Shown: positions 1,429 through 36,106 of the stretch, in pieces
How positions within the stretch are numbered: position 1 is the first letter of the stretch
Layout: each line of letters begins with the position of its first letter
From: Acidobacteriaceae bacterium
Lineage (GTDB): Bacteria > Acidobacteriota > Terriglobia > Bryobacterales > Bryobacteraceae
DNA: 64,000 bases
Assembly: GCA_019240405.1 (NCBI GenBank)
Contig: JAFAYL010000048.1
Coordinates: forward strand, 62,001 to 126,000
Direction: 5' to 3'
Program-made: the position numbers and the translations under genes
The notes under the pieces: model-generated
What the model was told of the DNA's origin: nothing
The model's database searches: none
The model's input: the letters and a program-made list of their open reading frames with translations, nothing else

Positions 1429-4400
1429 ATGTCAAAGTTCCATTTCAACGCAGTATCGTTCTGCCTTGGGCTCGCCTTGCTCTTGGGCTTAGTTTCAAAC
1501 CCCGCGCGCGCTCAGCAAGTGCTCGGAGCGATTACCGGCACTATCAAAGACTCTTCCGGCGCGTCAGTCCCCGGAGCAGCGGTGAAAGCGCGCAACACGT
1601 CGACTAATCTTCAGGTCAGCGTCGAAACGCAGTCAAACGGTTTCTATTCCATTCCGAACTTGCCGATAGGGGCCTATGAGTTAAGCTTCAGCAAATCGGG
1701 ATTCGAGACCGAAACTCACCCCGAAGTGCTTGTCCAAGGCGATCGGACGACAACCGTGGACGGCAATCTCAGAGTCGGCGCGACGACCACTACAGTCGAA
1801 GTTGTCGGGACCCCTCTGATGAATCAGGTCGATACGACAAACGGCTATGTCGTCGATCAATTGACCATTCAGGAAACGCCTCTCGGAACCGGAAGCTTCA
1901 CGCAGCTCGCGATTCTCGCTCCCGGAGTCCACGCGGATTTCCTGGCCGGCGCGGGCAGCAACGCAGGACTCGGCAATCAAGCCATCTTCGCCAACGGCCA
2001 GCGCGACACCAGCAACAGCTTCTCGCTGAACGGCATTAGCACAAACAATCTCTTCAATGGAAACTCCACCAGCCAAGTCGGCGAGAACAGGTTCGTGCTC
2101 AATACAGGCGAAAATTTCGGAGCCGGCGGCGAGATTCAAACCAGCACCTCAGTCTATGGCGCAATCGGCCAGGCTCTTCCCACTCCGCCGCCCGAGGCGA
2201 TTCAGGAAATCAGCGTCAACGCCGCCATGTACGACGCCACCCAAGGCGCGAACAGTGGAGCCCACATCGGCGTGATCACCAAATCTGGAACTAATCAGAT
2301 TCACGGCCAGATCTATGAAAAATTCCAGAACAGCGCGATGAACGCCGCGCCGTTTTTCTATAACGCCTCTCCCGCGATTACAACCAAAGTGCCCTTCATG
2401 AATCGCAACCAATTTGGAGCAACGCTCGGCGGCCCGATCAAGAAAGACAAGCTCTTCTACTTTCTCTCCTACCAAGGCGTCCGAATCGCGGACGCAACGG
2501 ATGCAACCAAAGACGCGACTGTTCCCCTAGGGCTTACAAACGACCGCAGTGCGCAAGGGATTGTTAATGCCGTCAATAGCAGCGGCTTTGGAACCACAAT
2601 CACGGCGAGTCAAATCAGTCCGGTCGCAGCCGCGCTCCTAAACGCGAAACTGAAGAACGGCCAATACCTGATCCCCAGCGCGCAAATAACCAACCCGCTC
2701 CAGGCCACAGGGCTGGGTTACGACGCCGTTCTTCAAGGGCCGAACGCTATTGCGAACGTCGATCAAGGAATCGCCAATATCGATTTCGTCGCGAGCGAAA
2801 AGGACCGCCTCACCGGCAAGTATTACGTTCAAGTGAATCCGACAACCAATCCGTTTGGCGCGGTCGGCTCGCTGCTCGGTTTTCCGCAGCAATTGAGCGC
2901 CGGAAGCCAGGTAGGCTCGATCGAAAACACGGTTATCCTTTCACCCGCGCTCACTTGGGAGCAGCGTGTTGGCTTTACCCGCCTGCACGCCTATTCACAA
3001 ACTTCGCAGGCGCTCTCGCCCAGTGACGTCGGAATGAATTTGCTTGGTTCGAATACGTTTCCGCAAATGGAGATCGACACGTCCGATCCCACGATCGCGG
3101 CGGGCCTGGAATTTGGGCCTAGCACCAGTTTTGGCAATGCCGGAATGTTTCAAAACCAGTGGGAATACGGAACCAGGGTGGGTTGGGTCAAGGGCCGGCA
3201 CACCCTCTCCTTCGGCGCGCAGTGGGATCACACGCAGCTCAACATCATCAACAAAAACACTTCCACTGATATCGTCGAATTCACAGACTTCAGCACCTTC
3301 GTTCAGGGCTCGGTTCGCAGCGGCCAAGCGTTCGCCGGTTCGGCGAGCCGGTATTACCGCTCCGATACGGTCGGCGCGTTTATAAACGACAATTACAAGA
3401 TCCGCAGCAATCTCACGCTCACTCTCGGACTGCGCTGGGATTATGACGGCCCGCTCACTGAAAAATACGGCCGCCTCACTGCGTTCAATTCCAACCTCTA
3501 CGCCTACGACGCCGCAACCGATACAATCACCGCCTCGGGGCTCGAATTCGCAAAGAACGGAAGCGATTCCCTGATTCGCAAACTGCAAGGCGGTTTCGCG
3601 CCTCGCGTCGCTATCGCCTGGACCCCGCTATCTAAACTGACCATTCGCACAGGCTTCGGCATTTACTACGACCGCGGCGAATTTTTCAGCTATCTGTCTC
3701 CGAGCGCGGGTAAGGGTTTCAACGGACCCTTCGGAGTTACGCTTGCGCCTCCGTTCGTCGAACCCATTGCCGCCAAGAGAGGCGCCAGTTCGTCTGTTCC
3801 ATTCGGAACCGTTGCTCCAACGCCGCCGCCAGGCACCCCTGCGCAGTTTCTAAGCTCGCTACCCAATCTCGCGCAAACCGAATCGGGCAACTGGCCGGCG
3901 GGCAATCTTTTCGGCCCGTTCGCGTTCGGCGGCTACGACATCAACAACAAACTTCCATATTCCGAAAATTGGACCTTTGATCTGCAATATCAGGCTGCCA
4001 ATAACTGGTTGTTCAGCGCAGGTTACATCGGTAATCACGGCGTGCATCAGGTACTGCCGGTCCCCTTCAATCAGCCGCTCATCGCTACTCCGCAAAATCC
4101 GGTGAACGGACAGATTTACTCCTATGGCGGCTTGAGCCCGCTCAGCGTTTGCAATTTTCCGACCGCGCCGCCATTGGATTTGGAACCCCTCTGCCCGCCG
4201 CCATATTATGCCGGAAATGCTGAGGTTCGTGTTCCCTACATCGGCTATGACATGAACTCCGTCCTTTACAAAGCTGAGGGCATTTCTAATTACAACGCGC
4301 TGCAGCTTCAGGCTCGCAAGCGCCTCTCTTTTGGTTTGCAGTTTACGGCATCCTACACATACTCGCATGCCTTAGACGAGCAGAGCGGCCTCGGTCTTTT

Positions 4401-5118
4401 CTTTACCGGCAACAATCCCCTCAATCCGAAATCAAATTACGCCTCAGCCGATTTCGATCAAACGCATGTGTTCCTGATCAATTACAGCTACACAATTCCG
4501 AGCCTGACCTCTAACAAGCTCCTAGGGGAGTTTGTGAATGGATGGACGGTGGGTGGGCAGACCGTCGCCCAGAGCGGTCAGCCTTATAGCGTTTACGATT
4601 ACTCAGGATCAGTCGCGGGCCTCTACTACGGCACTTACGATGAGATCACGAACCCGATTGTTCCCCTGAAGCCGGGTGTTTCCGCCAAGCAGGCACAGCT
4701 TCAAGGCACCACCGGCATCAACGCCGGATTGCCGGTCCTGAATGCGAACGACTTCCTTCCACAGTTTGTCGCGCCTGGAACGTTTGGCGTTCCGCCGTGC
4801 GATGCGACTGGTTGCGATTTGTACGAATCGCTCTACGGCACTTCAGGCCGGAATCTATTCCGCGGTCCCTTCCAGGTTCGATTCGACATGAGCGTCGCAA
4901 AAGAGTTCTCCATTACCGAGCGCGCCCGCCTGCGCTTCGAAGCCGACGCTTTCAATATCTTCAATCACCCGGATTTCGATACGCCGAATAATGACGTTAC
5001 ATTCTTCCCATTTTTCTCGGGGCCTCCATTAATTCCGCCCCAGGGCAGTTTGGGAATCATCCAACACACGATCGGAAGTCCGCGCTTCTTGCAGTTGAAC
5101 CTGCACTTAACGTTTTGA
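1429..5118 (+). CDS. TonB-dependent receptor, Oar-like, with carboxypeptidase-regulatory N-terminus
   Basis: This is a 1229-residue outer-membrane protein. Residues 1-29 form a signal peptide ending in ARAQ. A carboxypeptidase-regulatory-like beta-sandwich follows (about 30-115; ITGTIKDSSGASVPGAAV, then YSIPNLPIGAYEL). Next come a plug domain (about 130-290, with GGEIQTSTSVYG and SGAHIGVITKSGTNQIHG) and a beta-barrel ending in QLNLHLTF with the usual C-terminal aromatic residue. This layout is the Oar/SusC-related type greatly expanded in Acidobacteria, where the ligand is rarely known. It stands alone on the plus strand and converges on the helicase gene. I see no SusD-like partner. Family is certain; the substrate is unknown. 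Confidence 0.93.
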   Translation: MSKFHFNAVSFCLGLALLLGLVSNPARAQQVLGAITGTIKDSSGASVPGAAVKARNTSTNLQVSVETQSNGFYSIPNLPIGAYELSFSKSGFETETHPEVLVQGDRTTTVDGNLRVGATTTTVEVVGTPLMNQVDTTNGYVVDQLTIQETPLGTGSFTQLAILAPGVHADFLAGAGSNAGLGNQAIFANGQRDTSNSFSLNGISTNNLFNGNSTSQVGENRFVLNTGENFGAGGEIQTSTSVYGAIGQALPTPPPEAIQEISVNAAMYDATQGANSGAHIGVITKSGTNQIHGQIYEKFQNSAMNAAPFFYNASPAITTKVPFMNRNQFGATLGGPIKKDKLFYFLSYQGVRIADATDATKDATVPLGLTNDRSAQGIVNAVNSSGFGTTITASQISPVAAALLNAKLKNGQYLIPSAQITNPLQATGLGYDAVLQGPNAIANVDQGIANIDFVASEKDRLTGKYYVQVNPTTNPFGAVGSLLGFPQQLSAGSQVGSIENTVILSPALTWEQRVGFTRLHAYSQTSQALSPSDVGMNLLGSNTFPQMEIDTSDPTIAAGLEFGPSTSFGNAGMFQNQWEYGTRVGWVKGRHTLSFGAQWDHTQLNIINKNTSTDIVEFTDFSTFVQGSVRSGQAFAGSASRYYRSDTVGAFINDNYKIRSNLTLTLGLRWDYDGPLTEKYGRLTAFNSNLYAYDAATDTITASGLEFAKNGSDSLIRKLQGGFAPRVAIAWTPLSKLTIRTGFGIYYDRGEFFSYLSPSAGKGFNGPFGVTLAPPFVEPIAAKRGASSSVPFGTVAPTPPPGTPAQFLSSLPNLAQTESGNWPAGNLFGPFAFGGYDINNKLPYSENWTFDLQYQAANNWLFSAGYIGNHGVHQVLPVPFNQPLIATPQNPVNGQIYSYGGLSPLSVCNFPTAPPLDLEPLCPPPYYAGNAEVRVPYIGYDMNSVLYKAEGISNYNALQLQARKRLSFGLQFTASYTYSHALDEQSGLGLFFTGNNPLNPKSNYASADFDQTHVFLINYSYTIPSLTSNKLLGEFVNGWTVGGQTVAQSGQPYSVYDYSGSVAGLYYGTYDEITNPIVPLKPGVSAKQAQLQGTTGINAGLPVLNANDFLPQFVAPGTFGVPPCDATGCDLYESLYGTSGRNLFRGPFQVRFDMSVAKEFSITERARLRFEADAFNIFNHPDFDTPNNDVTFFPFFSGPPLIPPQGSLGIIQHTIGSPRFLQLNLHLTF

Positions 5119-5146
5119 GGCGCTTCGCGCGGGTACTCGGACGTAA

Positions 5147-8100
5147 TTACCCGAGATGGACTTGCATCCCGCTGCGACGGAGCAATCCTCGGCTGACAAG
5201 ATCGTCAGTAACGCGCCGGATAATCTCGGCAGCCTCATTTCGGAGTCGCTCAACGCCGAAGAGCCGTGCGACAGCTGTTGGTAGAGAATCCTCGAAAATC
5301 CCGAACTGATCCTCTACGAGATAGAGAACCGCAAGCGACAGCTCTGAAGGCGCAATATATTCGATAGGTCGCCGCACGGAATCTGTGGCTAAGCGGAAGC
5401 ACTCAAGGTGCCCTTCCGGTGTGCAGTAGAAAAAAGACATCTTGGATATCTTGTGGCTGTGCACCGCAGACCGCAATGCGCAGTCGATATTCGACTGAAC
5501 GTTTGATCCAGCCCTCGCCACGGCATGCACGTCTTTCAGTCGCTCGATCAGGAAATGTTGATGAATCGGTCCTTCCACTTTCACCAACGAGGTAATCGTA
5601 TCGACAAGAAGGCTCTGATACGCTGCATCCATCAAGTACTCGCGGTTTAATTTCCTTGCCGATTGGAAAACCATATAGGAAATCCCTGGGCTATATCGAC
5701 GCTTGATTTCGATCGTCTCTGAGCTCCAAGGGCGCGTTGTCGAGCTCCCTTGCGGGCTATTGAAAACGGGCGGAGGCGCATATACAGGACGTCCGAGGGG
5801 AGTGCTCCGGGCTTGCTCGACACTCCTGAGAATACTCTCAATTGCCTGATCGCGATCATGGAACCATTCTGTGGACCATAGGCGGTGTATTCGCCATCCC
5901 ATTCGTTGAAGCACCAGTTGCCGAAGCAAATCGCGATCCCTGGCGGTGCGCGAGCTATGGTATGCGATTCCATCGCATTCTATCCCTAGGATGTACTGTC
6001 CCTCATCGCGTGGGTCGCGCACTGCTAAATCAATGCGGTAACGGCTAGCGCCTACCTGCATGTCGACTTTTAGCCCTCGATCCACGAGAGCCGCACGAAC
6101 AGCTTCTTCAAATTCATTTGTCTCGCTGTCAGTCTGAACAGCCATTTCGGAAGGCAGTTCGCCACCCTTTTCAGCAAACTCATGGAAGGCCCGAAGTGAC
6201 ACTGCCCCCCGGTTGTTTGGGTTGACTCCGCTGAGATCTTGATATCGCAAGCTGGAAACAAGCACACATTCCCACTTGGCACGAGTTACGAGGACATTCA
6301 GCCGACGCCAGCCACCGTCAGCGTTGATCGGTCCGAAGTTCATACTGAGCCCCCCAGCATGATCCCTCCCGTATCCGACGCTGATGATCATCGTGTCGCG
6401 CTCATCGCCCTGAACATTCTCCAGCGACTTAATAAACACCCCTTCGTGCCGACCTTGGTCGAAAAACGTGCTGAGGTCCGGTCGGGACAGTAATGCCTCG
6501 GAGATAGCATCCTCTATTGCGTCTTTTTGGCTCAGATTTAGCGCCACGATGCCAAGCGATCGGTCTGGATCACGCTCGAAGTGTTCCAACGCCAATCGCG
6601 CAACAACTCGAGCTTCAGGTCTGTTCATCCGACTGCGGCCACGATCATAAACGCCATCCGGAACATAAACGAAACGGACCCCTTGGCCGGCGGGTGAAGA
6701 ACCGGCAGCTGGGAATGTAATCAGCTTGTTCTCATAAAAGAAATGATTCGAAAACCTTATTAGGCGTTCGTCGCGGCTCCGGTAATGCCAGCGCAGATGC
6801 GATTGCTGAAAGATCGGCACCACCGCTACGCACTCATCGAGAAGTGATTCCAAAGGAGCCTGTCCCCCCTCAGTCTCATCCTCATCTTGCTCCTCAGTGA
6901 CGAGAGAGGTTTGAAAGAAGGAAGTTGGAGGTAGCTGGTTCGGATCACCCGCCACCACGACCTGCGAGGCTCGGAGAATCGCTGGGACTGCCTCCGCGAT
7001 TGGCAACTGCGATGCCTCGTCGAACACAACGAGATCGAAATGAAAGGTGCCGGGCTTCAGGTATGTGGACACCGAAATGGGACTCATTAATAGGCACGGT
7101 TTCAGTGCCTGCATGACGTGTGGGATTTCCGAAAACAATTTTCGCAGTGGCTTAACCCGCTTTCGTTTTTGCAATTCGCGCCGAAGTATACCCACTTCGC
7201 TCGCACTTTCGCCGAGATCTTCTGCGGTCCGAACTCGGTCCGAAGCCGAACATGCAATTCTTTGCGCACGTGAAATCGCTAGCTGACGGACACGCTCATC
7301 AAGTTCCCGAAATTTTGTGAGCAGATCTCGTCCTTTTGCTTCTGTGAATCCGGCGAGTGTTGGACTGCGGTCGATTGCGGCGCTCACCCAGTGCTTCAGG
7401 AACCGACGTTCAAAAATGCATGGCGCATTCTTCGCGCTCGTTATCCCAAAACTCTCTATAAATTCGGACAAACCCGCCTCATCGCACTGCTGTAGTGCAC
7501 GATCCAACAAAACCCATTCGCGTGCCTTTCTTTTAGATTCGAGTAGAGAGGCAGAGCGGTTAGCGACTTCTGGAAGAGGAGCTTTGCTCGCAGGCTTTCC
7601 TCGGGCGAATCCTCGTGGCCAATCGCGGTCGAGCCGGAGGAATTGTGGCGGCAGAGATGAATCTGCAGAAATGACAAGAAGTAATTCTCTTGCAGCCTTG
7701 CGGATCGCGTCACTCAAAACTACAATTGGCTCGGGTTCCCTTCCAAGGGCGGCTAATACCCTTCTGCAGAGCACTGCAACAGTGAACGAGCGAGCAATGC
7801 GTTCCATAGCGGCTGAGCCTGAGATCTCAGAAGGATCAATGCGCGATTCAATGGCGGCGGCATGCCCATGAAACCACTCTTCGATTTCCGAGGCCCTCGA
7901 GCAACGCGCTCTTAGAGAGTCAAGGTGCGCTCGCCCAAATCTGACGCCGGGTTTGAGGGCCAATTTCACCACCTTGCGCCACCGCCAATAGGCCGGCCTG
8001 AACAAGGAATGCCAAGCCTTGAAACGGTCACGAATAGGAGAAAGAAGCTCGATTAATTCGGCCAGATTCCCAGATATTTCAGCTTGAATCTCGGACGAAA

Positions 8101-9961
8101 GTAAGTCCAGCTCACGGCGTTGCTTGGCAGCATCCATGAAAAGTTCTGCGAATGTCGCCAGCCTTTCATCGTTCTCCTGCCACCAAGTGTCTGGGAGCCG
8201 CTCCGTCTCTGCAATTGCGCCGAGGACCACCCTCAGGAGAACCCAATCGCGTAAGGAAAGGCATTGTGCATCGGGAAGCAGAGGGCCAAGCTGTTCCGCA
8301 AGAGAGGCAATTTTGTTACTGAGACTTAGAGCCTCCCTAAGTGCGGTCTCAAGGTTTTCGTGCTCGGGCAATCCGAAGGCCTTAGGTGAAAATCCGGACC
8401 AAGGATGAGTCTCCCGTTCGTCGAATACAGAGGCGTTCTCTGCAAGCGCTTCGAGCGTCTGTTTGCGGCGTTCAAAATCGTCTCGAGAGACCTCAACAGG
8501 ATTCGACCACGGTAACGTTCCCGCTACATCATCGATTTCCGCAAGTTGTGCCAGCCGAGCGTTTGCCCGGTAAACCGACAGGCCAAGAGGTTCGATAATC
8601 TGATGAAGCTCCTTCGCGTAGGCGTTAAGCTGGTCTCGAATTCGCAGAAGCTTCTGGAGTTCCTGCTCAATCGCATTCCCGTCATAACTAATTTCGGCGT
8701 CCAAGGTCCGCTTAAGCTCATCGATAATTTTCTGTTTCCCAGCCTTGGTGCTGTGTGCCTCAAGACAGAAGCTCTGAAGCCCTATGCTTTTGAGCCGCTC
8801 ATAAACCACGTTCAGTGCAGCCATTTTCGCGCTCACAAACAGAACCTTCTTGCTTCGAGTAAGCGCGTCAGCAATCAGGTTGGCAATAGTCTGGCTTTTG
8901 CCCGTACCCGGAGGGCCATGCACGACCACGTGACGCCCCAACGAGCACAGAGTCAGAGCCTCAAGCTGGCTTGAATCCGCAGGCAATGTCGGTATAGGAA
9001 CAGTTGCCGGTGACGGCAGTGTGTCAAGATCATGCAGCGCTTCCGACTTGTCGGCCGTTGTAGTCGCTCGTGAAAAGGCGCAAACAATGGGGTGAGTTAT
9101 CCCTGTATCAACCAGTGCTTTAAGGTCACGATAGATGACGAGGGACTCAAAAGAAAATGTGCTGAGCCAAACCTCCTCTGTGACGTGCCAGGGCTGCTCC
9201 TTTACGGCACACCGGATCGAGTCGAGGACGCCCGTGGGCGATCCCTCATCCGCTTCCTCTGGCAACTCCGGTAGCTGTATCTTGTGGCGCTCGCGAAGAT
9301 AGTACTCGAGCGCTGGATTGATTTGGGCATCTTCGTCAGCCGCGGAAAGCCGGAGCGCCGTCTCCGGACCCTTGCTCTCCAATTCACAGGGCACCATCCA
9401 CAAGGGACTAACGGATTCACCAATTTGGTCGTCCTTCCAATGGAGGGCACCGAAGGTTAGATAGAGCGTTGTGACGCCGCGCTCCTCCATGCTTGTTCGC
9501 GAATTATCGTGAATTCGACGGAGTCGGCGCATCAGATCCAACGGCCTTGCATCAAATGTGATGTCTCCCGCTTGCACAACAAAATCGGAACCTTCGCCCT
9601 CACTTGAAAATAAGTCGTCGGCCGATTCGGTCCTCTTCCGCACTAATGGCATGCGGAGTTGGTTTCCGTCAACAACAAGGGCGGAGAAGAGCGTGTGTGC
9701 CGTAGGTCCTGTGACTTCGAGCCTTGAAACTCTGGATCGATTCAAACTCAGCAAGGGGTTCGATTTCGTTAAATCCAGCACCTGATCTTGCCAGCGGCGC
9801 ATTTGCGCCTTAACTCGTTCCGCATCCACAGAGCTTCCCGAAGTACCGGAGGATTGTGGACTCTCCCTGGTCGCGTCGCTGTCGCCTCTTACCGCTGGAT
9901 TGGTTTCGTGCAAATTTATCTGGTCCATCAGCTTACGACCAGCATGAGCGGAGATCCCCAC
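5147..9961 (-). CDS. Giant SF1 helicase with DUF4011, Vsr/DUF559-like nuclease and DUF3320 domains (candidate anti-phage defence)
   Basis: A 1604-residue protein. A DUF4011-like N-terminal region (about 50-300; RWQDQVLDLTKSNPLL) is followed by Walker A GPPGTGKSQT at about 349. A long helical insertion comes next, then the SF1 motifs VFDEASQLP (about 977), GDPNQLPPTSFF (about 1005) and QGDERDTMIIS (about 1183). A Vsr/DUF559-type endonuclease domain lies near 1310-1370, with IDLAVRD, GIECDG and WRIHRLWSTEW. A DUF3320-like winged-helix region follows near 1450-1500. ATPase and nuclease residues look intact. The architecture recalls the single-gene helicase-Vsr defence class named Hhe in defence surveys (from memory). 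It has no obvious partner gene. The start is uncertain: GTG at 9961 or ATG at 9928. Confidence 0.85.
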   Translation of the reverse strand: MGISAHAGRKLMDQINLHETNPAVRGDSDATRESPQSSGTSGSSVDAERVKAQMRRWQDQVLDLTKSNPLLSLNRSRVSRLEVTGPTAHTLFSALVVDGNQLRMPLVRKRTESADDLFSSEGEGSDFVVQAGDITFDARPLDLMRRLRRIHDNSRTSMEERGVTTLYLTFGALHWKDDQIGESVSPLWMVPCELESKGPETALRLSAADEDAQINPALEYYLRERHKIQLPELPEEADEGSPTGVLDSIRCAVKEQPWHVTEEVWLSTFSFESLVIYRDLKALVDTGITHPIVCAFSRATTTADKSEALHDLDTLPSPATVPIPTLPADSSQLEALTLCSLGRHVVVHGPPGTGKSQTIANLIADALTRSKKVLFVSAKMAALNVVYERLKSIGLQSFCLEAHSTKAGKQKIIDELKRTLDAEISYDGNAIEQELQKLLRIRDQLNAYAKELHQIIEPLGLSVYRANARLAQLAEIDDVAGTLPWSNPVEVSRDDFERRKQTLEALAENASVFDERETHPWSGFSPKAFGLPEHENLETALREALSLSNKIASLAEQLGPLLPDAQCLSLRDWVLLRVVLGAIAETERLPDTWWQENDERLATFAELFMDAAKQRRELDLLSSEIQAEISGNLAELIELLSPIRDRFKAWHSLFRPAYWRWRKVVKLALKPGVRFGRAHLDSLRARCSRASEIEEWFHGHAAAIESRIDPSEISGSAAMERIARSFTVAVLCRRVLAALGREPEPIVVLSDAIRKAARELLLVISADSSLPPQFLRLDRDWPRGFARGKPASKAPLPEVANRSASLLESKRKAREWVLLDRALQQCDEAGLSEFIESFGITSAKNAPCIFERRFLKHWVSAAIDRSPTLAGFTEAKGRDLLTKFRELDERVRQLAISRAQRIACSASDRVRTAEDLGESASEVGILRRELQKRKRVKPLRKLFSEIPHVMQALKPCLLMSPISVSTYLKPGTFHFDLVVFDEASQLPIAEAVPAILRASQVVVAGDPNQLPPTSFFQTSLVTEEQDEDETEGGQAPLESLLDECVAVVPIFQQSHLRWHYRSRDERLIRFSNHFFYENKLITFPAAGSSPAGQGVRFVYVPDGVYDRGRSRMNRPEARVVARLALEHFERDPDRSLGIVALNLSQKDAIEDAISEALLSRPDLSTFFDQGRHEGVFIKSLENVQGDERDTMIISVGYGRDHAGGLSMNFGPINADGGWRRLNVLVTRAKWECVLVSSLRYQDLSGVNPNNRGAVSLRAFHEFAEKGGELPSEMAVQTDSETNEFEEAVRAALVDRGLKVDMQVGASRYRIDLAVRDPRDEGQYILGIECDGIAYHSSRTARDRDLLRQLVLQRMGWRIHRLWSTEWFHDRDQAIESILRSVEQARSTPLGRPVYAPPPVFNSPQGSSTTRPWSSETIEIKRRYSPGISYMVFQSARKLNREYLMDAAYQSLLVDTITSLVKVEGPIHQHFLIERLKDVHAVARAGSNVQSNIDCALRSAVHSHKISKMSFFYCTPEGHLECFRLATDSVRRPIEYIAPSELSLAVLYLVEDQFGIFEDSLPTAVARLFGVERLRNEAAEIIRRVTDDLVSRGLLRRSGMQVHLG

Positions 9962-10275
9962 GCAACCTGGTTTGCGCCCGCCCCCTGGCCATAGCCTTGC
10001 ATTATCAGTTCTGATCGGTTATTTGTTTGATTTTACACTGAGTTTTTCGATTGCAAAGAGCCCGCCACAGGATAGGAAATTCCCGAATTGAAGGCAAGGT
10101 GTCCGGCTTTCCTGATCGCGTAATCCTTCAAGTTAATGTATCTTTCAAGGCTGTCCGCATCCGCACACCGCGATGCCAGTCCCGGCGAATCCAGTTTCGA
10201 CACAAAGCGCCCGGCACTTAAAAATCAAATACTTACATAAGTCCCGGACAAGGCCGGCGGCGTGCGCATAGAATC
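9962..10275. other. Intergenic region between divergent helicase and ADOP permease genes
   Basis: This stretch of about 314 bases has no plausible coding frame. It must hold the promoters of both divergent genes. An AT-richer core (10015-10055) faces the helicase gene. On the permease side there is an imperfect palindrome TGTCCGCATCCGCACA (10155-10170) and an A/T-rich tract near 10220-10240. No convincing -35/-10 pair or riboswitch was recognised. Confidence 0.4.
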
Positions 10276-10287
10276 TTGTCAGGCCGC

Positions 10288-12768
10288 ATGCTGCAAGCGC
10301 TCACTCAAGACATTCGCTTCGCTTTCCGCCAGTTCCGAAAGCGTCCCGGTTTCACAGCTCTCACGATCCTCATCCTCGCTCTGGGACTTGGCGCGAACAC
10401 AGCGATCTTCAGTATCGTGAATGCCTTTCTCCTACGCTCGCTTCCCTTTAAAGAACCCGACCGGCTGGTCGCGCTTTTCGAACGGAACGTCGTCAATTAC
10501 GACGAGCAGCGCAACTGGGTTGCACCGGCCAATTTCCTCGATTGGCAGAAGCTCTCCACTAGCTTCGAACAGATTGCCGCCTACGTGACTGGGAATTCCA
10601 ATCTATCTAGCTCGACAAACACTTTCGAACCCGAGCGTATCGACTTCTGCGCCTGCTCCGGTAACCTGTTTTCTACGCTGGGTGTTCCGCCCCTTCTTGG
10701 GCGCGACTTTCGTTCCGATGAAGATCGCTACGGCGCACCTCGTGTGGTCGCGATCAGCTATGGTCTTTGGCAGAGGCGATTCGGCGCAGCGCCAAACGTT
10801 ATAGGAAAAAGGGTCCGCATCGACAGCGAGGATTACCAAATCGTCGCCGTCATGCCTCGCGGTTTTGCATTTCCTTCTCGAACCATCGAAGCCTGGAGCC
10901 CGCTGCTCACCTTTCTGCCCCCTGAGCGCCAGAAGCGGCACGATACCCATTTCCTGCAGCCAATTGCCCGGTTAAAACCGGGTGTTTCGGTTGAAAAAGC
11001 CAGAGCCGAGATCGACGGCATCGCTGCGCGTTACAAGCGCACGCATCCTCAAGATGTGAGCGGTCGCGGAGGAAACGTTCTTCCGCTCCACGATTCGCTC
11101 GTCTGGGATGTGCGCACCTCGCTTTTACTATTACTCGGAGCAGTGGGCTGCGTCCTGCTGATCGCCTGCGTCAATGTAGCGAATCTCTTGCTGACGCGCG
11201 CGACGGGGCGGATTCGTGAAGTTTCCATTCGTGCAGCCGTAGGCGCAAGTCAAAACCGGATCATCTCCCAATTGCTGACTGAAAGCATTCTTCTGGCCCT
11301 CGCCGGCGGCGTTGTCGGTGTCTTCCTTGCCATCTCTATAACAGAAATCTTGATTTCCCATGCGCCGGGTGCAGACGCCATTCTTCCCGCGGGAAGACTC
11401 CCGCTCGATCCCATGGTCTTTCTGTTCGTGTTTTGCGTTTCGCTACTCACCGGCATTGCAGCGGGCCTTTATCCTGCAATTCAGTCTTCACGAACCGACC
11501 TCACGAACTCGCTGAAAGACAGCAGCCGCTCCGCAACTCCAACTCGATCTCACGGCCGGTTTAGAAGCATTCTAGTGACTGCAGAAGTCGCGCTTTCCAT
11601 GGTGCTTCTGGTCGCAGCGGGTCTTCTACTCCGGAGCTTCTCGCATCTTTATCGCGTGAATCCTGGCGTGCGCATTGATCACACGCTTACAATGGCCGTG
11701 TCTTTACCCGACGCAAGTTATCAAAAGCCGCCCAAGACCGCCGCATTTTTGACCCAGCTAACCGACCGCATTCAGACGATTCCGGGCATTAAATCTGCTG
11801 GTCTGACGACCTGTGCTCCCGTTTCCGGTCATTGTGACGATCTCGTCTTTCACATCGAGGGTGAGGAACTCCCGGCCGGCCAGATGAGAGACGCACTTGA
11901 TCGCGCCGCCGATCCGGGTTATTTCGCTGCCGTCGGACTTCCGCTCATCCGCGGGCGTCTCTTTTCACCCCAGGATGGAATCGGCTTCGATGAGAAGCAT
12001 CCCAAAATGGGCGCCGTCGTCATCAGCGCCTCCACGGCAAAGACATACTTTGCCCACGAGGACCCCATCGGCAGGCACATCTTCTTCGGGATCGACCTGG
12101 CTCGACAACAGCTCACCGGCACTCCTGTCCCGCGCTATGAAGTGGTCGGCATTGTCGGCGATACAGTCACAGATCTAGATCAGAAAATTAGACCCACTGT
12201 TTACTTGCCGATTTTGGACGGGCGCTGGAGCGAGTTCTACGTTGTGCTGCACACGGCCTTCGAACCGCATTCGGCAATTTCAGCAGCGCGAAAAGCCATC
12301 GACCAGCTCAACCCGGATCTCGCCGTCTATGATGTCCACACGATGGACGAGCTCATCGGGCAATCGGCTTCCGACCGACAATTCAGTATGCTTCTTTTCG
12401 GGTCTTTCGCGGGCCTAGCGGTGCTGCTTGCAGCGGTTGGCCTATATGGTGTTCTCTCGTACGCCGTCTCGCAGCGCAGAGGCGAAATTGGAATCCGAAT
12501 GGCTCTCGGTGCGAGTAATTCTGACGTCAGCCGTCTCGTGCTGAAACAAGGAATGACTCCAGCCCTCGCAGGCATCGTCATTGGCATTCTCGTTGCCCTC
12601 TTTGCGTCTCAACTTCTCAGAACTCTGCTCTTTGGCATTTCTCCAGTCGATCCCCTGACATTCGTCTTGGTACCTCCGCTATTGCTCGGAATCGCCGGAC
12701 TAGCCTGCTATATACCCGCTGTCCGCGCAGCCCGCATCGACCCGACCCTCGCGTTGCGCACAGAATAA
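10288..12768 (+). CDS. ADOP-family duplicated MacB/FtsX permease
   Basis: A permease of about 826 residues from ATG 10288; an in-frame TTG at 10276 would add four residues. The order is a short amphipathic N-terminus ([16 protein letters not shown]), TM1, a MacB-type periplasmic core (about 50-270) and a three-helix FtsX domain (about 280-405; [15 protein letters not shown]). A second copy of core plus FtsX follows (about 430-825), ending [10 protein letters not shown]. The internal duplication, with no ATPase gene attached, is the hallmark of acidobacterial duplicated orphan permeases. MacB-type proteins couple a cytoplasmic ATPase to extrusion of peptides or macrolides; for ADOP proteins the cargo is unknown. 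The gene is monocistronic here. Confidence 0.93.
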
Positions 12769-12787
12769 TTTCCCTATCGATCTGCTA

Positions 12788-13186
12788 TTACCAAATTGTT
12801 TCGAATCCTGCCGCTTGGATGCGAGCGTCGCGAGTAATGAGTGGCACGCGGAGGCGGAGCGCGGTTGCGGCAATGATGCGGTCGGGCATATCGGGAATTG
12901 CATTTCGATTAATGCTCCTCAGCACGGTGGCAATGTGCAAATCAACCGCAACCACGGTGAATGCGGGATCCTTTCCTCCCAGTTCGTCCACAAACTTCTC
13001 GAAGGCGTTGCTTGGTATGCGCTCACGTTCAATAAGATAGACAATCTCGACGAGCGATATAGCGGAAATGTATGTTGGAGTGCCGTCAGCAGCGGCGGCA
13101 TCGATCAGCGAATAAGCCGTTTGTGAGAGCCTCTTTGAATCGAGCAGGTACCAAATAGCCGCGTGAGTGTCGACCACTGCAGACAT
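12788..13186 (-). CDS. PIN-domain toxin (VapC-like ribonuclease)
   Basis: A 132-residue single-domain PIN protein. The four acidic residues expected at the metal site are present: D6 (VVDTHAA), E47 (SLVEIVY), D102 (PDRIIAA) and D120 (ITRDARI). VapC-type toxins cleave tRNA or rRNA and are neutralised by the protein encoded just upstream. Its ATG shares one base with the antitoxin's stop (TGATG at 13186), the usual translational coupling of such modules. Length and motifs are normal, so the toxin is probably active. The RNA target cannot be read from sequence. Confidence 0.9.
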   Translation of the reverse strand: MSAVVDTHAAIWYLLDSKRLSQTAYSLIDAAAADGTPTYISAISLVEIVYLIERERIPSNAFEKFVDELGGKDPAFTVVAVDLHIATVLRSINRNAIPDMPDRIIAATALRLRVPLITRDARIQAAGFETIW

Positions 13187-13407
13187 CAGGAGATGTCTCG
13201 CGGAAAGTTACCCCACATCTCGCGGCGAGCGTCGGCAATGTCTTCTTCAGTGATTTCGATGTTGAGATTATTCCAAAGGCCCCGCAGACTGCGACGAGAC
13301 TTCCTCGCATTCCTGTCTTTCAGCAAACTCACGAAATCCAGCACCTCCTTCTGATTTTCAAGAGGCAAATCGCGAAGTTTTTGCAGGACCTGTTCTTCGA
13401 TCGACAT
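13186..13407 (-). CDS. Antitoxin of the PIN-domain toxin (DUF2281/VapB-like)
   Basis: A 73-residue acidic and basic helical protein. Its N-terminus (EEQVLQKLRDLPLENQKEVLDFV) resembles DUF2281-type antitoxins, in which a short helical segment is followed by a C-terminal toxin-binding tail (here WGNFPRDIS). It lies directly upstream of the PIN toxin with a TGATG stop/start overlap, so the two form a two-gene operon transcribed toward the ADOP gene. Such antitoxins usually also repress their own promoter, here expected in the 98 bases shared with mdh. The pairing is strongly supported by position; the fold is inferred. Confidence 0.8.
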   Translation of the reverse strand: MSIEEQVLQKLRDLPLENQKEVLDFVSLLKDRNARKSRRSLRGLWNNLNIEITEEDIADARREMWGNFPRDIS

Positions 13408-13466
13408 CTCGCTTCATCATACGACTTAGCCGACACCGAGCCGGAAAGCGTTAGCGCCCTAGATCC

Positions 13467-13480
13467 GTTGCTATACTGAG
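13467..13480 (+). promoter_or_regulatory. Possible -10 element upstream of mdh
   Basis: TATACT at 13472-13477 lies 29 bases before the mdh ATG, in a 98-base divergent intergenic region shared with the toxin-antitoxin operon. A weak TTAGCG at 13451 could be a poorly spaced -35. This is a visual match only. Confidence 0.3.
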
Positions 13481-13499
13481 CGGGTTTAATCGTCATTAA

Positions 13500-14441
<942 letters not shown>

Positions 14442-14493: not shown

Positions 14494-14973
14494 ATGGCGA
14501 CTGTCGATTCTGCCAAACGACCGAAGCCAGAGACGCCCGCCCCCATTCGTATCAACCCGAAGTACGCGTGTTTCCGAATGCGTCCAGCCCGTTCGGCAAT
14601 TCATCGCTGGGGTGTGTACGCCACCGAGTTCATCCCGGCTGGCAGAAAGGTGATCGAGTACACGGGAGAACGGATCAGCCGGCGCGAAACAAAACGCCGG
14701 GCCGAAGCGAGCCAATTTACTTATCTATTTACTTTGGACGCCTATTGGACCGTCGATGGCTCCGTTGGAGGCTCAGGCGCCGAGTACATCAATCACTCCT
14801 GCGACCCGAATCTCACCGCCCGAATCATCAAAGGTCATATCCTCTATATGAGTCTCCGCGACATCAAACGCGGGGAAGAGCTGACCGTCGACTATCATTT
14901 CGATAAGAAGGTGGACAAGGTCCCTTGTCACTGCGGGTCGGAAAAGTGCCGCGGCGTAATCAATGTTCTGTAA
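14494..14973 (+). CDS. SET-domain protein-lysine methyltransferase
   Basis: This 159-residue protein is essentially one SET domain. The AdoMet-binding GVYATEFIPAGRKVIEYTGE segment is near residues 43-62. The pseudoknot motif NHSCDPN is near 107, and EELTVDY near 130. A post-SET-like CHCGSEKCRG with three cysteines closes the protein. SET enzymes transfer methyl groups from AdoMet to lysine side chains. In bacteria the targets are rarely known and may include ribosomal or nucleoid proteins. All core motifs are intact, so activity is likely. It lies 52 bases after mdh and may be cotranscribed with it. The substrate is unknown. Confidence 0.9.
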   Translation: MATVDSAKRPKPETPAPIRINPKYACFRMRPARSAIHRWGVYATEFIPAGRKVIEYTGERISRRETKRRAEASQFTYLFTLDAYWTVDGSVGGSGAEYINHSCDPNLTARIIKGHILYMSLRDIKRGEELTVDYHFDKKVDKVPCHCGSEKCRGVINVL

Positions 14974-14981
14974 TCGGCGCG

Positions 14982-15509
14982 CTATGGCTGCACCTGTAAA
15001 AGATTCGTTACTTTGCTGACGCCATTTACTTGTCGCGCGGCATCTTCAGCGCGCTGTTTCTGATCGTCGGAAGACACCGTTCCCCGCAGCGTCACGTCGT
15101 GATCCGTTACATCGACATCGATATTCGTGATGGTGGAGGCCCCGAGATCAGCAACCAGCGCAGCTTTAACCTTCGCAATGATTCCTGCGCGATCAAGCTT
15201 CGCTGCCGCATCTCTTCCTGCAGTGCGCACCTCCTGGCGGGCGTTGTCTATTTTCTGACCCGCCGTCGCGCCGCCGCTTGGCTCGCTGCCCTGTAGCCCG
15301 CGCTCTACTTTTCGATTCAGGTCGTTCGCTTCCTGCTTGATCTCGTGCCCAAGCTTTCGTGCCTCTTGGCGCGCCCGCTCCGCCTCACGATGCGCCTTCT
15401 CTCGTGCCTCTTCGGCCCGTTGACGCGCCCGTTCCTTCTCGCTCCTATCACACCCCGCGAAAAATCCGAGAACGGCGGCGCACGCCAGAGACAACAGTCT
15501 TCGCCTCAT
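14982..15509 (-). CDS. BON-domain lipoprotein
   Basis: A 175-residue exported protein. The N-terminus is a lipoprotein signal ending in the lipobox FFAGC (Cys about 19). A strongly charged Arg/Glu/Ala-rich coiled coil follows (about 22-95). A C-terminal BON domain (about 105-175; IIAKVKAALVADLG, then VTLRGTVSSDDQKQRAEDAA) ends in VSKVTNLLQVQP. BON domains bind phospholipid surfaces, as in OsmY and the E. coli lipoprotein DolP, and often appear in envelope-stress proteins. The gene converges on the SET gene with 8 bases between stops. The exact role is unknown. Confidence 0.88.
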   Translation of the reverse strand: MRRRLLSLACAAVLGFFAGCDRSEKERARQRAEEAREKAHREAERARQEARKLGHEIKQEANDLNRKVERGLQGSEPSGGATAGQKIDNARQEVRTAGRDAAAKLDRAGIIAKVKAALVADLGASTITNIDVDVTDHDVTLRGTVSSDDQKQRAEDAARQVNGVSKVTNLLQVQP

Positions 15510-32679: not shown

Positions 32680-35600
32680 TCAGCCTCCGAACGACGACCG
32701 GTGAAGCCAACTTGGCAGCGGAAGCGGCCAGGACATCATAGCGAGATGGTCGTAGGCCCAGAAGTTGATCAACTGCAATCCGCGTGTGCTGGCGAGCAGC
32801 AGCTCGCGCGGCCACGGACACGTCCCGGTGAACCACGGGATGAGATATGCCACGCTTGATGGGGCCCACGACATGGGACTCGTGAGCGCGAAAACGATGG
32901 CCTGATGCGCTAAGTCCATCTGGAGATAGGTTGCGCCCCAACTGAGCGCTTCCACTTTGAAGCGATCAAGCCCGCTGGTGGCTTGGCTCTGAAATTCTAC
33001 CGGCAAATTAACTGCGGCATTTAGACGTCCGCCTTGCGGGTATTGCACGCCAGGGCCAAGGAGGCAGACCGGATTGTTGACGTCGTTCGGATAAAGGATT
33101 TCGAACTTCGCATTGGGATATTGCGCGAGGACAGCGGTCCGTATCGCATCAATATGAGCTTTGAGGCGCCCGGCAAGAAAGCTCGCATCCGCGCCGCCAT
33201 TTACCGTGGGATCGTCATCCTGACACGTGAATTTATAGAGCGGCCGCCCGAGGGCGGACTGAGCGGCTGCGGCAGTTACCGGGTCATAGTAGGCCATAGA
33301 GCCGCCGCGAACTTGCCCGCTGCCGGTGACCCAGTCGCCGTTGGGTGAGACCGGAACCGTGAAATGCGTGTCATCAACGACGGTGATCGCCCAGGTTCCG
33401 TTCACGGACGTACAACCTCCGACTCCGGTGATTACGACGCGATCGCCGGTTGTCATGCCATGAGGTTGCGGCCCGGTTGCGCCGGCCGTTTCTATGGTGA
33501 CCGGGTCTGTCGCGGCGAGATCGCCTACGGCCAGACTTGTCTCTGAAAAAAACCACCACAGAAATTCGCCGAATTGAAGCCAAGGCGTAAGACCCGCTGC
33601 GCTTTGCAAGCCTGCCATTGTCGTGAAAACGGATTGCTGAAATTGCGTCATGTTGTCGATAAACGAACATTGAGAGGAGACGAGATGCGCGTAGCCGGTA
33701 TCCGTCTGCACAGTGGTTCCGTCGTAGTAGCGAGCCTGCCAGGCATTGGCGAGAGTTCCATCGTCCGGCGGATACACGAGCTCCATCGAAAAAGAAGTGG
33801 TGATCAGCAGACCGGCAGCGTTTACGGCATTGAACAGATCGCTATGCCACGGCCGAATGGGGAAATTAATGGGATTGGATGCGGATGGATCGACTTGCCA
33901 GTTTCCCTGGACGCCTTTGGCAATACTGCCGGAAGTTGTGATGGTGCCAGTAGTGGTGGTGAAAAGCGCTTGTGCAGAGAACGTTTCTTCTCCCCAGCTC
34001 GGCGTCTTTGGGTAAATCGTGAGTTGGCCAGTGCCCGTCTTCTCCGCCCACATCTCAATGCTGGCGGAGTTGATATAGAAAAGGAAGTGCTGGGCAATTG
34101 TGTCAGCGGTATCCCAATAAATCATTGACTTCGTCATCGTGAACCCGCCAATAGTAAGCTGCACCGCGGCCCGCGGATCTTCGTTACCCTGCCACTCTCC
34201 ATTGAACGTGACCACTCCTGAATTCCACGTTTCGCCAAAGCGTTTCCGCTGGTTCCACCAGAAAACGCCCAAGTATTCATTCAACTGGCCATTGAAGCCG
34301 AGCTTCAGCAAATGCCAGAGGAGCCGTTGCGGACTTACTTTATAAGTGGCGTCGGTATCAAAGTCAAGCGCCGGACTGATGTTCCCGTACGTAACTGTGG
34401 CATCAGCTACTTCGGCAGTAGGGACTGCGGCTTCTATGTAATCGAAGATGAAAGTGAACCCGGACGAATTGATATCGGTCGGAAATTGGGCGACGTGATT
34501 TACGCTTTTGACGGTGAATGTGACGGTATGAGCGCCCGCGGGAACTTGCGGCTGTATGAGACGCCTCGTGACCAGCTCGGAGCCAAGGTTCAAGAAGCAG
34601 TCGAGGTCTGCCAACTGATTGCCGTCGAGCGTCACACTAACAATTCCTCGATCCACGTATAAAGAGGTTCCCAGATAGAGATCGTGGGTGTGACGTGACG
34701 TGTATGAAACGGTGATGGAATCGCCGGGCTCGGCAGTAACTCGGGCGAATCCATGCCAATAGTTGTTTGCCGCTTTCACGCTCCAACCCGCACCAGAGTA
34801 GGTACACGAGCCGCTCTCGTCATTACCAATGCGGAGGCTTCCGGGGCCGGCAATCTGAAGCGTTCTCGTGTTGTTTGGATCGGCGACCGACCAGTTGCTG
34901 AAAGTCGCGGTCCATTCCGTGTCGCTATAAGCGCTGCTCGCAGGGAGTTGCGGCGCGAAGGTAATCCATGCTTGTCTAATCTGATCGATTCCTAAAGCGG
35001 AGAAATCGAGCGAAACGTTCCAAGTGACGTTATCGGAATTTCCGCCTGTCAGCGGAAGGACCGGATTGTCAACCTGGAGATTGATATTTCCGGGTCTCAC
35101 AACGATGTAGACCGTAACGCTGTTGCCGTCCAAACCCCCATACTCGGCAAGATAGACGGCTGCGGCCTGCGAGCCTGCATCGCTTGTGAGGGTGAGAGAC
35201 GTCGGGCTATTTACAGCAGCGACGATGTACGCGTTTCCGCCGATATAGATGGTCGACCCGGCTGCGATCCCCGGAAATTTCGTTCCGTCAGACCACTCCA
35301 CGTCCGTGCCCGAGACATTCACATGCCCAGTTCGCGCATTCTTCAATGTCAGCGCGCCGCTTCCATCTGTCGAAGCAATTACGGAAACGCTGCTCTGCTC
35401 ATAAGTCCACCAGCTATACGAGTTGATTGAATCTGCGAACCACTGCGCGACTTGAGCCGCGGTCATTCCGACGTAGTTGCCGACGGCAACAAAATCGAAT
35501 TCCGCGTTGTTCACGAAGAGAGTCAAACGGTCATAGAGGTAGCAGCCGCCAGGGGCCGTAAACGTAAACGTGCCCTGCGCCACGGAATAATTCCCAGACA

Positions 35601-35973
35601 CGAGCGTGGCGTAGTCCCATAGACGAACCTGCTGATTAGCGCCGGTGACAGGCGCGATATCGAGTTGTGCCCAGTCGACCCACGAATATTTTGCGGAATC
35701 GATCGGCTGGAGACCCTGATAGGTAAGATTGAAGCTCAGCACCATGCCGGAAAAATCGAAGTTGGGCAGATATCTGACCGTATAGTGCTCGAATGTGTTA
35801 TCCGCGTCGTAGAGAACCAAGACGCAGAAGTCGGCCATATCGCGGAATACACCATACACTGTGAATCCGGTCGGGCTGGCTTGACATAGCGAGGCGGCAG
35901 CGCCGAAACCGTCGAAGCCGCGGAGGTACAGGGTTCGATCGGGCTGCAGCTTGAGAATCTGTTCTGTGCTCAT
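32680..35973 (-). CDS. Large phage-tail-like protein with possible TIM-barrel domain (orphan)
   Basis: A 1097-residue protein from ATG 35973 (MSTEQILKLQPDRTLYLRGF). It is rich in Thr, Ser, Gly and aromatic residues and has no signal peptide. The N-terminal half consists of predicted beta-sandwich segments with IYIGGNAYIVAAVNSPTSL-type repeats. A region near 870-920 (MTTGDRVVITGVGGCTSVNG) resembles FCCH-like modules of phage tail proteins. The C-terminal third (WLQFGEFLWWFF, then LYPNDVNNPVCLLGP) suggests a TIM barrel like those of non-contractile tail-sheath or glycosidase-like phage proteins. No other phage gene is nearby. Function is unknown; a tail-derived or surface-structure protein is the best guess. 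Confidence 0.6.
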   Translation of the reverse strand: MSTEQILKLQPDRTLYLRGFDGFGAAASLCQASPTGFTVYGVFRDMADFCVLVLYDADNTFEHYTVRYLPNFDFSGMVLSFNLTYQGLQPIDSAKYSWVDWAQLDIAPVTGANQQVRLWDYATLVSGNYSVAQGTFTFTAPGGCYLYDRLTLFVNNAEFDFVAVGNYVGMTAAQVAQWFADSINSYSWWTYEQSSVSVIASTDGSGALTLKNARTGHVNVSGTDVEWSDGTKFPGIAAGSTIYIGGNAYIVAAVNSPTSLTLTSDAGSQAAAVYLAEYGGLDGNSVTVYIVVRPGNINLQVDNPVLPLTGGNSDNVTWNVSLDFSALGIDQIRQAWITFAPQLPASSAYSDTEWTATFSNWSVADPNNTRTLQIAGPGSLRIGNDESGSCTYSGAGWSVKAANNYWHGFARVTAEPGDSITVSYTSRHTHDLYLGTSLYVDRGIVSVTLDGNQLADLDCFLNLGSELVTRRLIQPQVPAGAHTVTFTVKSVNHVAQFPTDINSSGFTFIFDYIEAAVPTAEVADATVTYGNISPALDFDTDATYKVSPQRLLWHLLKLGFNGQLNEYLGVFWWNQRKRFGETWNSGVVTFNGEWQGNEDPRAAVQLTIGGFTMTKSMIYWDTADTIAQHFLFYINSASIEMWAEKTGTGQLTIYPKTPSWGEETFSAQALFTTTTGTITTSGSIAKGVQGNWQVDPSASNPINFPIRPWHSDLFNAVNAAGLLITTSFSMELVYPPDDGTLANAWQARYYDGTTVQTDTGYAHLVSSQCSFIDNMTQFQQSVFTTMAGLQSAAGLTPWLQFGEFLWWFFSETSLAVGDLAATDPVTIETAGATGPQPHGMTTGDRVVITGVGGCTSVNGTWAITVVDDTHFTVPVSPNGDWVTGSGQVRGGSMAYYDPVTAAAAQSALGRPLYKFTCQDDDPTVNGGADASFLAGRLKAHIDAIRTAVLAQYPNAKFEILYPNDVNNPVCLLGPGVQYPQGGRLNAAVNLPVEFQSQATSGLDRFKVEALSWGATYLQMDLAHQAIVFALTSPMSWAPSSVAYLIPWFTGTCPWPRELLLASTRGLQLINFWAYDHLAMMSWPLPLPSWLHRSSFGG

Positions 35974-36106
35974 AGAAAGGGCGCAATTGCGGATTGTGGT
36001 TCCGGCCCGATTTTTTCGCCAGCCGAGTGCGGCAGGCAAAATGTTGCGAAAAGAAGTCGTTGAATCTACGTGAAATAGAAAAGCTTGTGAACGCGTGACT
36101 GGGGGC

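Follow-up and report, generated by a model that had tools for sequence, protein, structure and literature searches.

Results

The gene and its locus

The window, that is the whole stretch of 64,000 nucleotides analysed here, carries one long open frame at 5147-9961. It consists of 1604 codons plus a stop and begins with GTG, with an ATG at residue 12 of the 1604-aa protein as an alternative start. A preliminary description of this DNA had reported a single gene here and gave no strand; the frame is indeed one and uninterrupted, and lies on the minus strand. A chance ORF was ruled out, because three relatives are 64-66% identical to the protein along its full length. The G+C content of the gene is 54.0% versus 55.5% for the window, and is not clearly foreign. 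Between 9850 and 10350 we found three promoter-like sites, against a mean of 0.4 in shuffled sequences; these are consensus matches only, and one of them is on the strand of the gene.

The gene lies, as described before, between a receptor and a permease. The receptor is an outer-membrane barrel of the TonB-receptor type (1429-5118) and the permease is of the MacB/FtsX type. The gene, the permease, and a PIN gene accompanied by an ORF for a possible antitoxin make up an accessory stretch that reaches from the receptor gene to mdh, and whose ends are approximate, not base-exact (Table 1).

Table 1. Features of the locus and of the encoded protein, in window positions; residues refer to the 1604-aa protein
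Feature	Positions	Strand	Evidence
PDC-S37/ProA-like helicase-nuclease gene	5147..9961	minus	open frame; PADLOC PDC-S37, 1221.6 bits; NCBIfam ProA, 1226.9 bits
Probable winged helix 2, residues 1538-1603	5153..5350	minus	model secondary structure, block pLDDT > 90
Winged helix 1 (overlaps DUF3320), residues 1440-1513	5423..5644	minus	Pfam and model secondary structure, block pLDDT > 80
Vsr-like PD-(D/E)xK nuclease (REase_MTES_1575), residues 1284-1379	5825..6112	minus	Pfam PF18741, 6.3e-35
Helicase motifs II-VI and RecA2 lobe, residues 916-1239	6245..7216	minus	Pfam AAA_12
Long, mostly helical insertion from motif I to II, residues ~456-915	7217..8596 (limits approximate)	minus	AlphaFold2 model
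First part of RecA1 lobe with Walker A, residues 329-455	8597..8977	minus	Pfam AAA_11
DUF4011 domain, residues 62-222	9296..9778	minus	Pfam PF13195, 4.2e-25
Accessory stretch, receptor gene to mdh	5119..13505		flanking genes ~25 bases apart in congener G013
MacB/FtsX permease, neighbour outside the system	10276..12768	plus	Pfam MacB_PCD, FtsX
PIN-domain gene (12788-13186) and 73-aa upstream ORF (13186-13407)	12788..13407	minus	Pfam PIN, 2.2e-14; adjoining ORF

The accessory stretch

The receptor-mdh interval measures 8.4 kb in the window versus about 25 bases in G013, where the orthologous receptor gene (80% protein identity, 864 residues) directly precedes mdh (91%, 203 residues). This empty site is that of one congener, which is 62% complete and was read on a 3,197-base contig. 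No full copy of the gene was present in the 16 congener assemblies searched, several of them incomplete (55-96%), and two gave short matches only, of 44 and 75 residues. With no full copy in the congeners and abutting flanks in G013, the gene is accessory. The receptor-mdh site is variable in general, since no receptor orthologue was found beside mdh in two other congeners with longer flanks (L056 and L057). Between the edges of the stretch (5051-5300 and 13151-13560) no exact words of 9 or more bases were shared in direct orientation.

Shortly before mdh, at 13465-13477, the window has a CGTTGCTATACT-like element that G013 has as well. Variants of it occur in 7 of the 11 other congener loci compared, and it is absent from L043, L044, L048 and L056. 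The element is probably the -10 region of the mdh promoter. Given its recurrence before mdh in congeners, it seems that the added stretch lies upstream of that promoter.

The permease belongs to a large, expanded family: counting itself, the genome has 47 matches at E <= 1e-30, and each of the 16 congeners has matches too. Its relatives in G008 and G011 (L054 and L055; 60-63% identity) have neither mdh nor the helicase-nuclease gene in the stretches read. The history of the permease may therefore be a separate one. On the other side, the end of the 73-aa ORF touches the start of the PIN gene, and this pair adjoins the accessory gene. The two are likely a VapBC-type pair, the antitoxin role being suggested by the arrangement.

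Domains and conserved motifs

The architecture proposed earlier (DUF4011, SF1 helicase motifs, a Vsr-like nuclease and DUF3320) is confirmed by Pfam profile search and by motifs. The best AAA_11 stretch is the one given in Table 1, and AAA_12 covers residues 1052-1237. The set of SF1 motifs is complete, with GPPGTGKS, DEASQ, GDPNQLPP, QGDERD and RRLNVLVTRA. Walker A (GPPGTGKS, residues 349-356) and Walker B (976-982) are about 620 residues apart, which splits the first RecA lobe. In the nuclease region, which holds IDLAVRD (residues 1310-1316) and GIECDG (1326-1331), DUF559 is the weaker match (2.8e-5) compared with MTES_1575. DUF3320 itself spans residues 1443-1490 (8.8e-9). The probable second winged helix has three helices and two strands in the model, and structure matches that reach this part have Z <= 7.6. 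No HEPN, transglutaminase or other separate toxin domain was found in the protein by Pfam at E <= 0.01.

Aligning 23 proteins, including that of the window and leaving out L067 (a split ORF), L071 and the viral-contig loci, we observed D1311, E1328 and D1330 in all of them. Walker B (DEAS) is likewise present in all 23 and Walker A in 22, the sole exception being L069, which has a short frame of 1310 aa. When 21 C-terminal regions were compared as a second set, D1311 and D1330 did not vary, and E1328 was conserved at 90% or more. Loss of the acidic residues across the family, raised earlier as a point against the defence reading, is thus not seen in either set.

Structure models

Residues 1240-1604 and 40-1239 were modelled separately, with structure alignments of 21 and 17 sequences. 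In the model of the C-terminal part (mean pLDDT 84.8), a nuclease core is followed by a linker of low confidence and two units of the winged-helix type. A structure prediction of the nuclease site had been proposed as a check in the preliminary description; the modelled nuclease resembles Vsr-like enzymes, namely the catalytic domain of the homing endonuclease I-Bth0305I (Z 11.9, rmsd 2.7, 96 aligned), NGO0050 (Z 10.9, rmsd 1.9, 91 aligned) and E. coli Vsr (1vsr; Z 9.5, rmsd 2.5, 98 aligned). A Toxoplasma mitoribosomal chain also matches (Z 11.2). For this model Foldseek alone found nothing at E <= 0.001 (NGO0050 and I-Bth0305I had E 0.07-0.14), so the assignment of the nuclease fold comes from the second aligner and the Pfam match.

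The AlphaFold2 model of residues 40-1239 has a mean pLDDT of 73.4, with several insertion stretches below 50. It matches IGHMBP2 (4b3g; Z 20.7, rmsd 4.9, 476 aligned), UPF1 (2wjy; Z 20.1, rmsd 4.3, 402 aligned) and Dna2 (Z 19.6); together with Aquarius, all are within Z 18-21. Foldseek gave 63 matches at E <= 0.001. The fold predicted for the motor is that of a UPF1-like SF1 helicase.

Family assignment

A profile search against defence models, which had been proposed as a check along with the DUF families found above, returned PDC-S37, ProA and, more weakly, Hhe. PDC-S37 (PDLC05009) is an unpublished candidate single-gene system of PADLOC, and the protein matches it over nearly the whole length (residues 48-1598 against profile positions 4-1541 of 1550). 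Membership was judged by a whole-length profile match in one gene, which is what we found, and not by the PADLOC threshold. PDC-S37 is also the best PADLOC model for all six other homologues scanned. Scores are 1205-1227 bits for the window protein, L021 and L023, 1683 for L058, 1484 for L072, 1184 for L060 and 926 for L024. The branch of the window protein is therefore neither central nor the most remote in PDC-S37, as it scores below L058 and L072 and above L060 and L024. In the parts of PMC12988326 and PMC11811056 available to us, PDCs as a class are termed putative or unpublished candidates. We found no described mechanism for the PDC-S37 family in the open-access literature searched.

The anti-phage protein ProA of NCBIfam (NF058533) has the same domain order, and residues 33-1572 align to profile positions 337-1903. 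The score is below the curated cut-off of 1500, and the first ~336 profile positions, the N-terminal part of ProA, are unmatched. The same part is unmatched in L021, L023, L058 and L072, where the match starts at about profile position 350. A full ProA (L060, 1992 aa, 2127.5 bits, matched from profile position 2) is present in G023, which belongs to the same taxonomic family as the host.

The preliminary description had likened the protein to the Hhe class. Hhe reaches 800.2 bits in NCBIfam (NF042953), below its cut-off of 2000, and 560.2 bits in PADLOC (PDLC02194), with a best stretch of residues 860-1385 only. These matches are weaker than those to PDC-S37 and ProA, and we therefore rejected Hhe as the closest family. 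The Hhe class, which we take to combine DUF4011, an SF1 helicase and a Vsr-like nuclease as the window protein does, was reportedly shown by Gao and colleagues in 2020 to protect against phage. Mokosh was rejected as well: MkoA and MkoC share the SF1 helicase lobes, where the match is local (85.2 and 71.5 bits), and a whole-length match is absent.

Larger relatives with the same helicase-Vsr-wHTH core were discussed in Biology Direct in 2013 (PMC3710099), and the part of that paper available to us proposes modification-independent DNA defence for them. It also suggests suicidal action for those bearing a HEPN domain. These MTES_1575 helicase-Vsr giants, as far as that part describes them, have in common with the window protein the SF1 helicase, the Vsr REase of the MTES_1575 type and a wHTH overlapping DUF3320; their HEPN and transglutaminase domains are unmatched in it. 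The giants also have a second C-terminal wHTH, with which the secondary structure of the probable second winged helix is compatible, at the low Z given above.

A small branch present in two phyla

The three close relatives come from Acidobacteriota (L021), Bryobacterales (L022) and Smithellaceae (L023). The four proteins show the same 64-66% identity among themselves, and at most 31% identity to the other 19 compared. They form one side of a tree split with support 100/100; elsewhere in this tree the placement of L069, L070, L076 and other long rows is unsure. The distinct branch considered in the preliminary description is thus supported; its restriction to acidobacteria, also considered there, is not, with one of the four members in Smithellaceae. 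The distance to the Smithellaceae copy is no greater than that to the acidobacterial ones, which points to transfer between phyla, with the reserve that its contig comes from a metagenome assembly, where mis-binning is possible.

The gene, intact and probably moved horizontally, belongs to a distinct branch of an already catalogued family of candidate defence genes, and is not a new kind. An unrecognised system, as first supposed, it is not, since PADLOC lists the family as PDC-S37.

Six short peptide patterns taken from one protein served to find the close relatives in the collection, and no more than two candidates per genome were scored in the phylum search; the branch may therefore have members beyond those found. 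In this phylum search 16 of the 396 sampled genomes, the own one included, match at E <= 1e-120; no further member of the close branch is among the listed matches of the 15 others (33-40% identity). Any match at all was obtained in 21 of 60 relatives, again with the own genome counted.

On plasmids, 432 of 72,556 records have a homologue at E <= 1e-5, 221 of them conjugative; only 7 cover at least 80% of the query. Just one of 50,697 phage records has a homologue. Viral-contig loci with a homologue number at least 31, with 14 distant ones among the matches listed.

Two homologues depart from the usual length or organisation. The one in Bryobacterales (L022, 2325-7691) is longer by some 180 residues and carries extra sequence in its helical region; part of this aligns a second time to residues 580-742 of the window protein, indicating an in-frame internal duplication or an assembly artefact. 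The one at L067 (792-6227, in G023) is split in two ORFs of 504 and 1260 aa, possibly a broken or a two-gene version of the family.

Genomic neighbourhoods

A simple rule based on length and on G+C by codon position served to call neighbour genes. It gave 52 other ORFs in the window, of which 49 were scanned, together with the ORF at 13186-13407. Among these 50, PADLOC reported eight families with one member each (GlgB, mad3, mad8, viperin models and CARF-type models), which we have taken for generic homologues, and no clear defence neighbour at the host locus.

Elsewhere in the window, an ORF of 1119 aa at 32680-36039 has a Pfam match (1.2e-15) to the TIM barrel of a phage tail sheath protein of the non-contractile type. 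The nine other ORFs scanned alongside it did not look phage-like.

The neighbours differ among the window, L021, L022 and L023. A conserved partner gene was rejected on this basis, and the earlier claim that the gene has no partners holds for these four loci. The neighbours are mostly ordinary in L021 (hemerythrin, glycosidase-like) and in L022 (epimerase, sodium symporter). A DACNV sensor-domain gene lies at 7530-8384 of L021, 1.5 kb upstream of the helicase-nuclease relative. In the Smithellaceae locus, a DUF1016/PDC-S02 gene is 1.5 kb away. Also at this locus, a fragment encoding the C-terminal specificity region of a Type ISP/IIG restriction enzyme (14752-15216) follows the helicase-nuclease gene and overlaps its stop by 4 bases, which looks like an insertion into, or the replacement of, a restriction locus.

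As for more distant members, L069 adjoins GajA and GajB (Gabija), a copy on a Salinibacter plasmid has a type I-E CRISPR locus about 2.5 kb away, and two copies on haloarchaeal plasmids are near genes for a UvrD helicase and a PD-(D/E)XK nuclease. Around 13 more distant loci 107 neighbours were called; 96 were scanned and 11 shorter ones dropped, and ten were then scanned singly. Few families match more than one of the 96 neighbours (mad2 three, mad3 two), in a raw tally of the best 25 of 120 families with no random-locus background.

Inside a single bacterial family, four families of neighbour genes are each found at four loci, and part of the wider helicase-nuclease family therefore looks as if inherited vertically. 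A conserved housekeeping context, named in the preliminary description as a reason to doubt a defence role, is hence seen for some members of the wider family within one bacterial family, and the window gene does not share this synteny. The available part of PMC10250203 places a DUF4011 gene at the edge of a defence hotspot in Pseudomonas aeruginosa; since it is there reported in every isolate, that gene would be a core gene.

Discussion

Proposed function and alternatives

We think it probable that the gene was acquired horizontally and encodes, on its own, a DNA defence protein of the PDC-S37/ProA kind that works independently of modification; judged from sequence, defence is a plausible function. 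The winged helices and the N-terminal part would help to engage foreign DNA. The UPF1-like SF1 motor, with its large helical insertion in the first lobe, would carry out ATP-driven translocation or unwinding, and the tethered Vsr-fold nuclease would nick or cut the DNA. As no methylase was found beside the gene, self is presumably spared by the state of the DNA (ends, replication or repair structures) and not by a modification mark. We infer DNA as the substrate, and likewise the order of the steps and the trigger.

In favour of defence are the near-whole-length match to PDC-S37, the strong match to ProA, the intact motifs, the nuclease and motor folds and the patchy accessory distribution. 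The presence of the branch in Acidobacteriota and Smithellaceae at equal identity, the neighbours in Smithellaceae, at L069, in Salinibacter and on the haloarchaeal plasmids, the homologues on plasmids and viral contigs and the proposal in the available part of PMC3710099 point the same way. Counted against it are the neighbours at the host locus, the mostly ordinary context in L021 and L022, the few families shared among neighbours of the more distant loci, the partial synteny, the single phage record and, as far as the portion of PMC10250203 goes, the core DUF4011 gene of P. aeruginosa.

The same anatomy, with nuclease and motor motifs intact, is compatible with an abortive-infection effector, in which the helicase would sense phage DNA intermediates and the nuclease would degrade the DNA of the infected cell, the host's included, leading to death. 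The suicidal action suggested for HEPN-bearing relatives in the portion of PMC3710099 available goes with this, but the window protein has no HEPN or other separate toxin domain at the Pfam threshold used, and we consider such an effector unlikely. Less likely again is a housekeeping or niche helicase-nuclease of DNA repair or recombination, similar to Dna2 and transferred now and then. The resemblance of the motor to Dna2 and UPF1, the synteny shared in part of the wider family, and neighbours that include no clear defence gene in the host and are mostly ordinary in two close relatives would all suit that role. It fits poorly with the patchy distribution, both in the congeners and in the sampled phylum, with a close relative in another phylum and with homologues on plasmids and viral contigs.

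An SF1 helicase-nuclease that needs no modification gene could also exclude plasmids or conjugative elements instead of phage. We hold this to be improbable: the homologues are themselves found on plasmids, about half of those records being conjugative, the nearest curated NCBIfam families are named anti-phage, and nothing favours plasmids over phage.

Returning to the reading as a defence protein of the PDC-S37/ProA kind, the four-member branch might even be a defence subtype apart from PDC-S37 proper, ProA and Hhe, in which DUF4011 and the helical insertion have diverged, and which has a trigger of its own and spreads between Acidobacteriota and Smithellaceae as a lone gene, mostly outside defence islands. 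This is a speculative extension that we regard as rather doubtful.

Significance

With this locus, a family listed by tools as candidate defence gains a well-supported branch whose nuclease is intact. This helicase-nuclease giant is seen in two phyla, mostly as a lone gene outside a defence island, and in such a setting discovery based on neighbourhoods could miss giants of this type. The form without the ProA N-terminal module could help to locate the part that senses phage.
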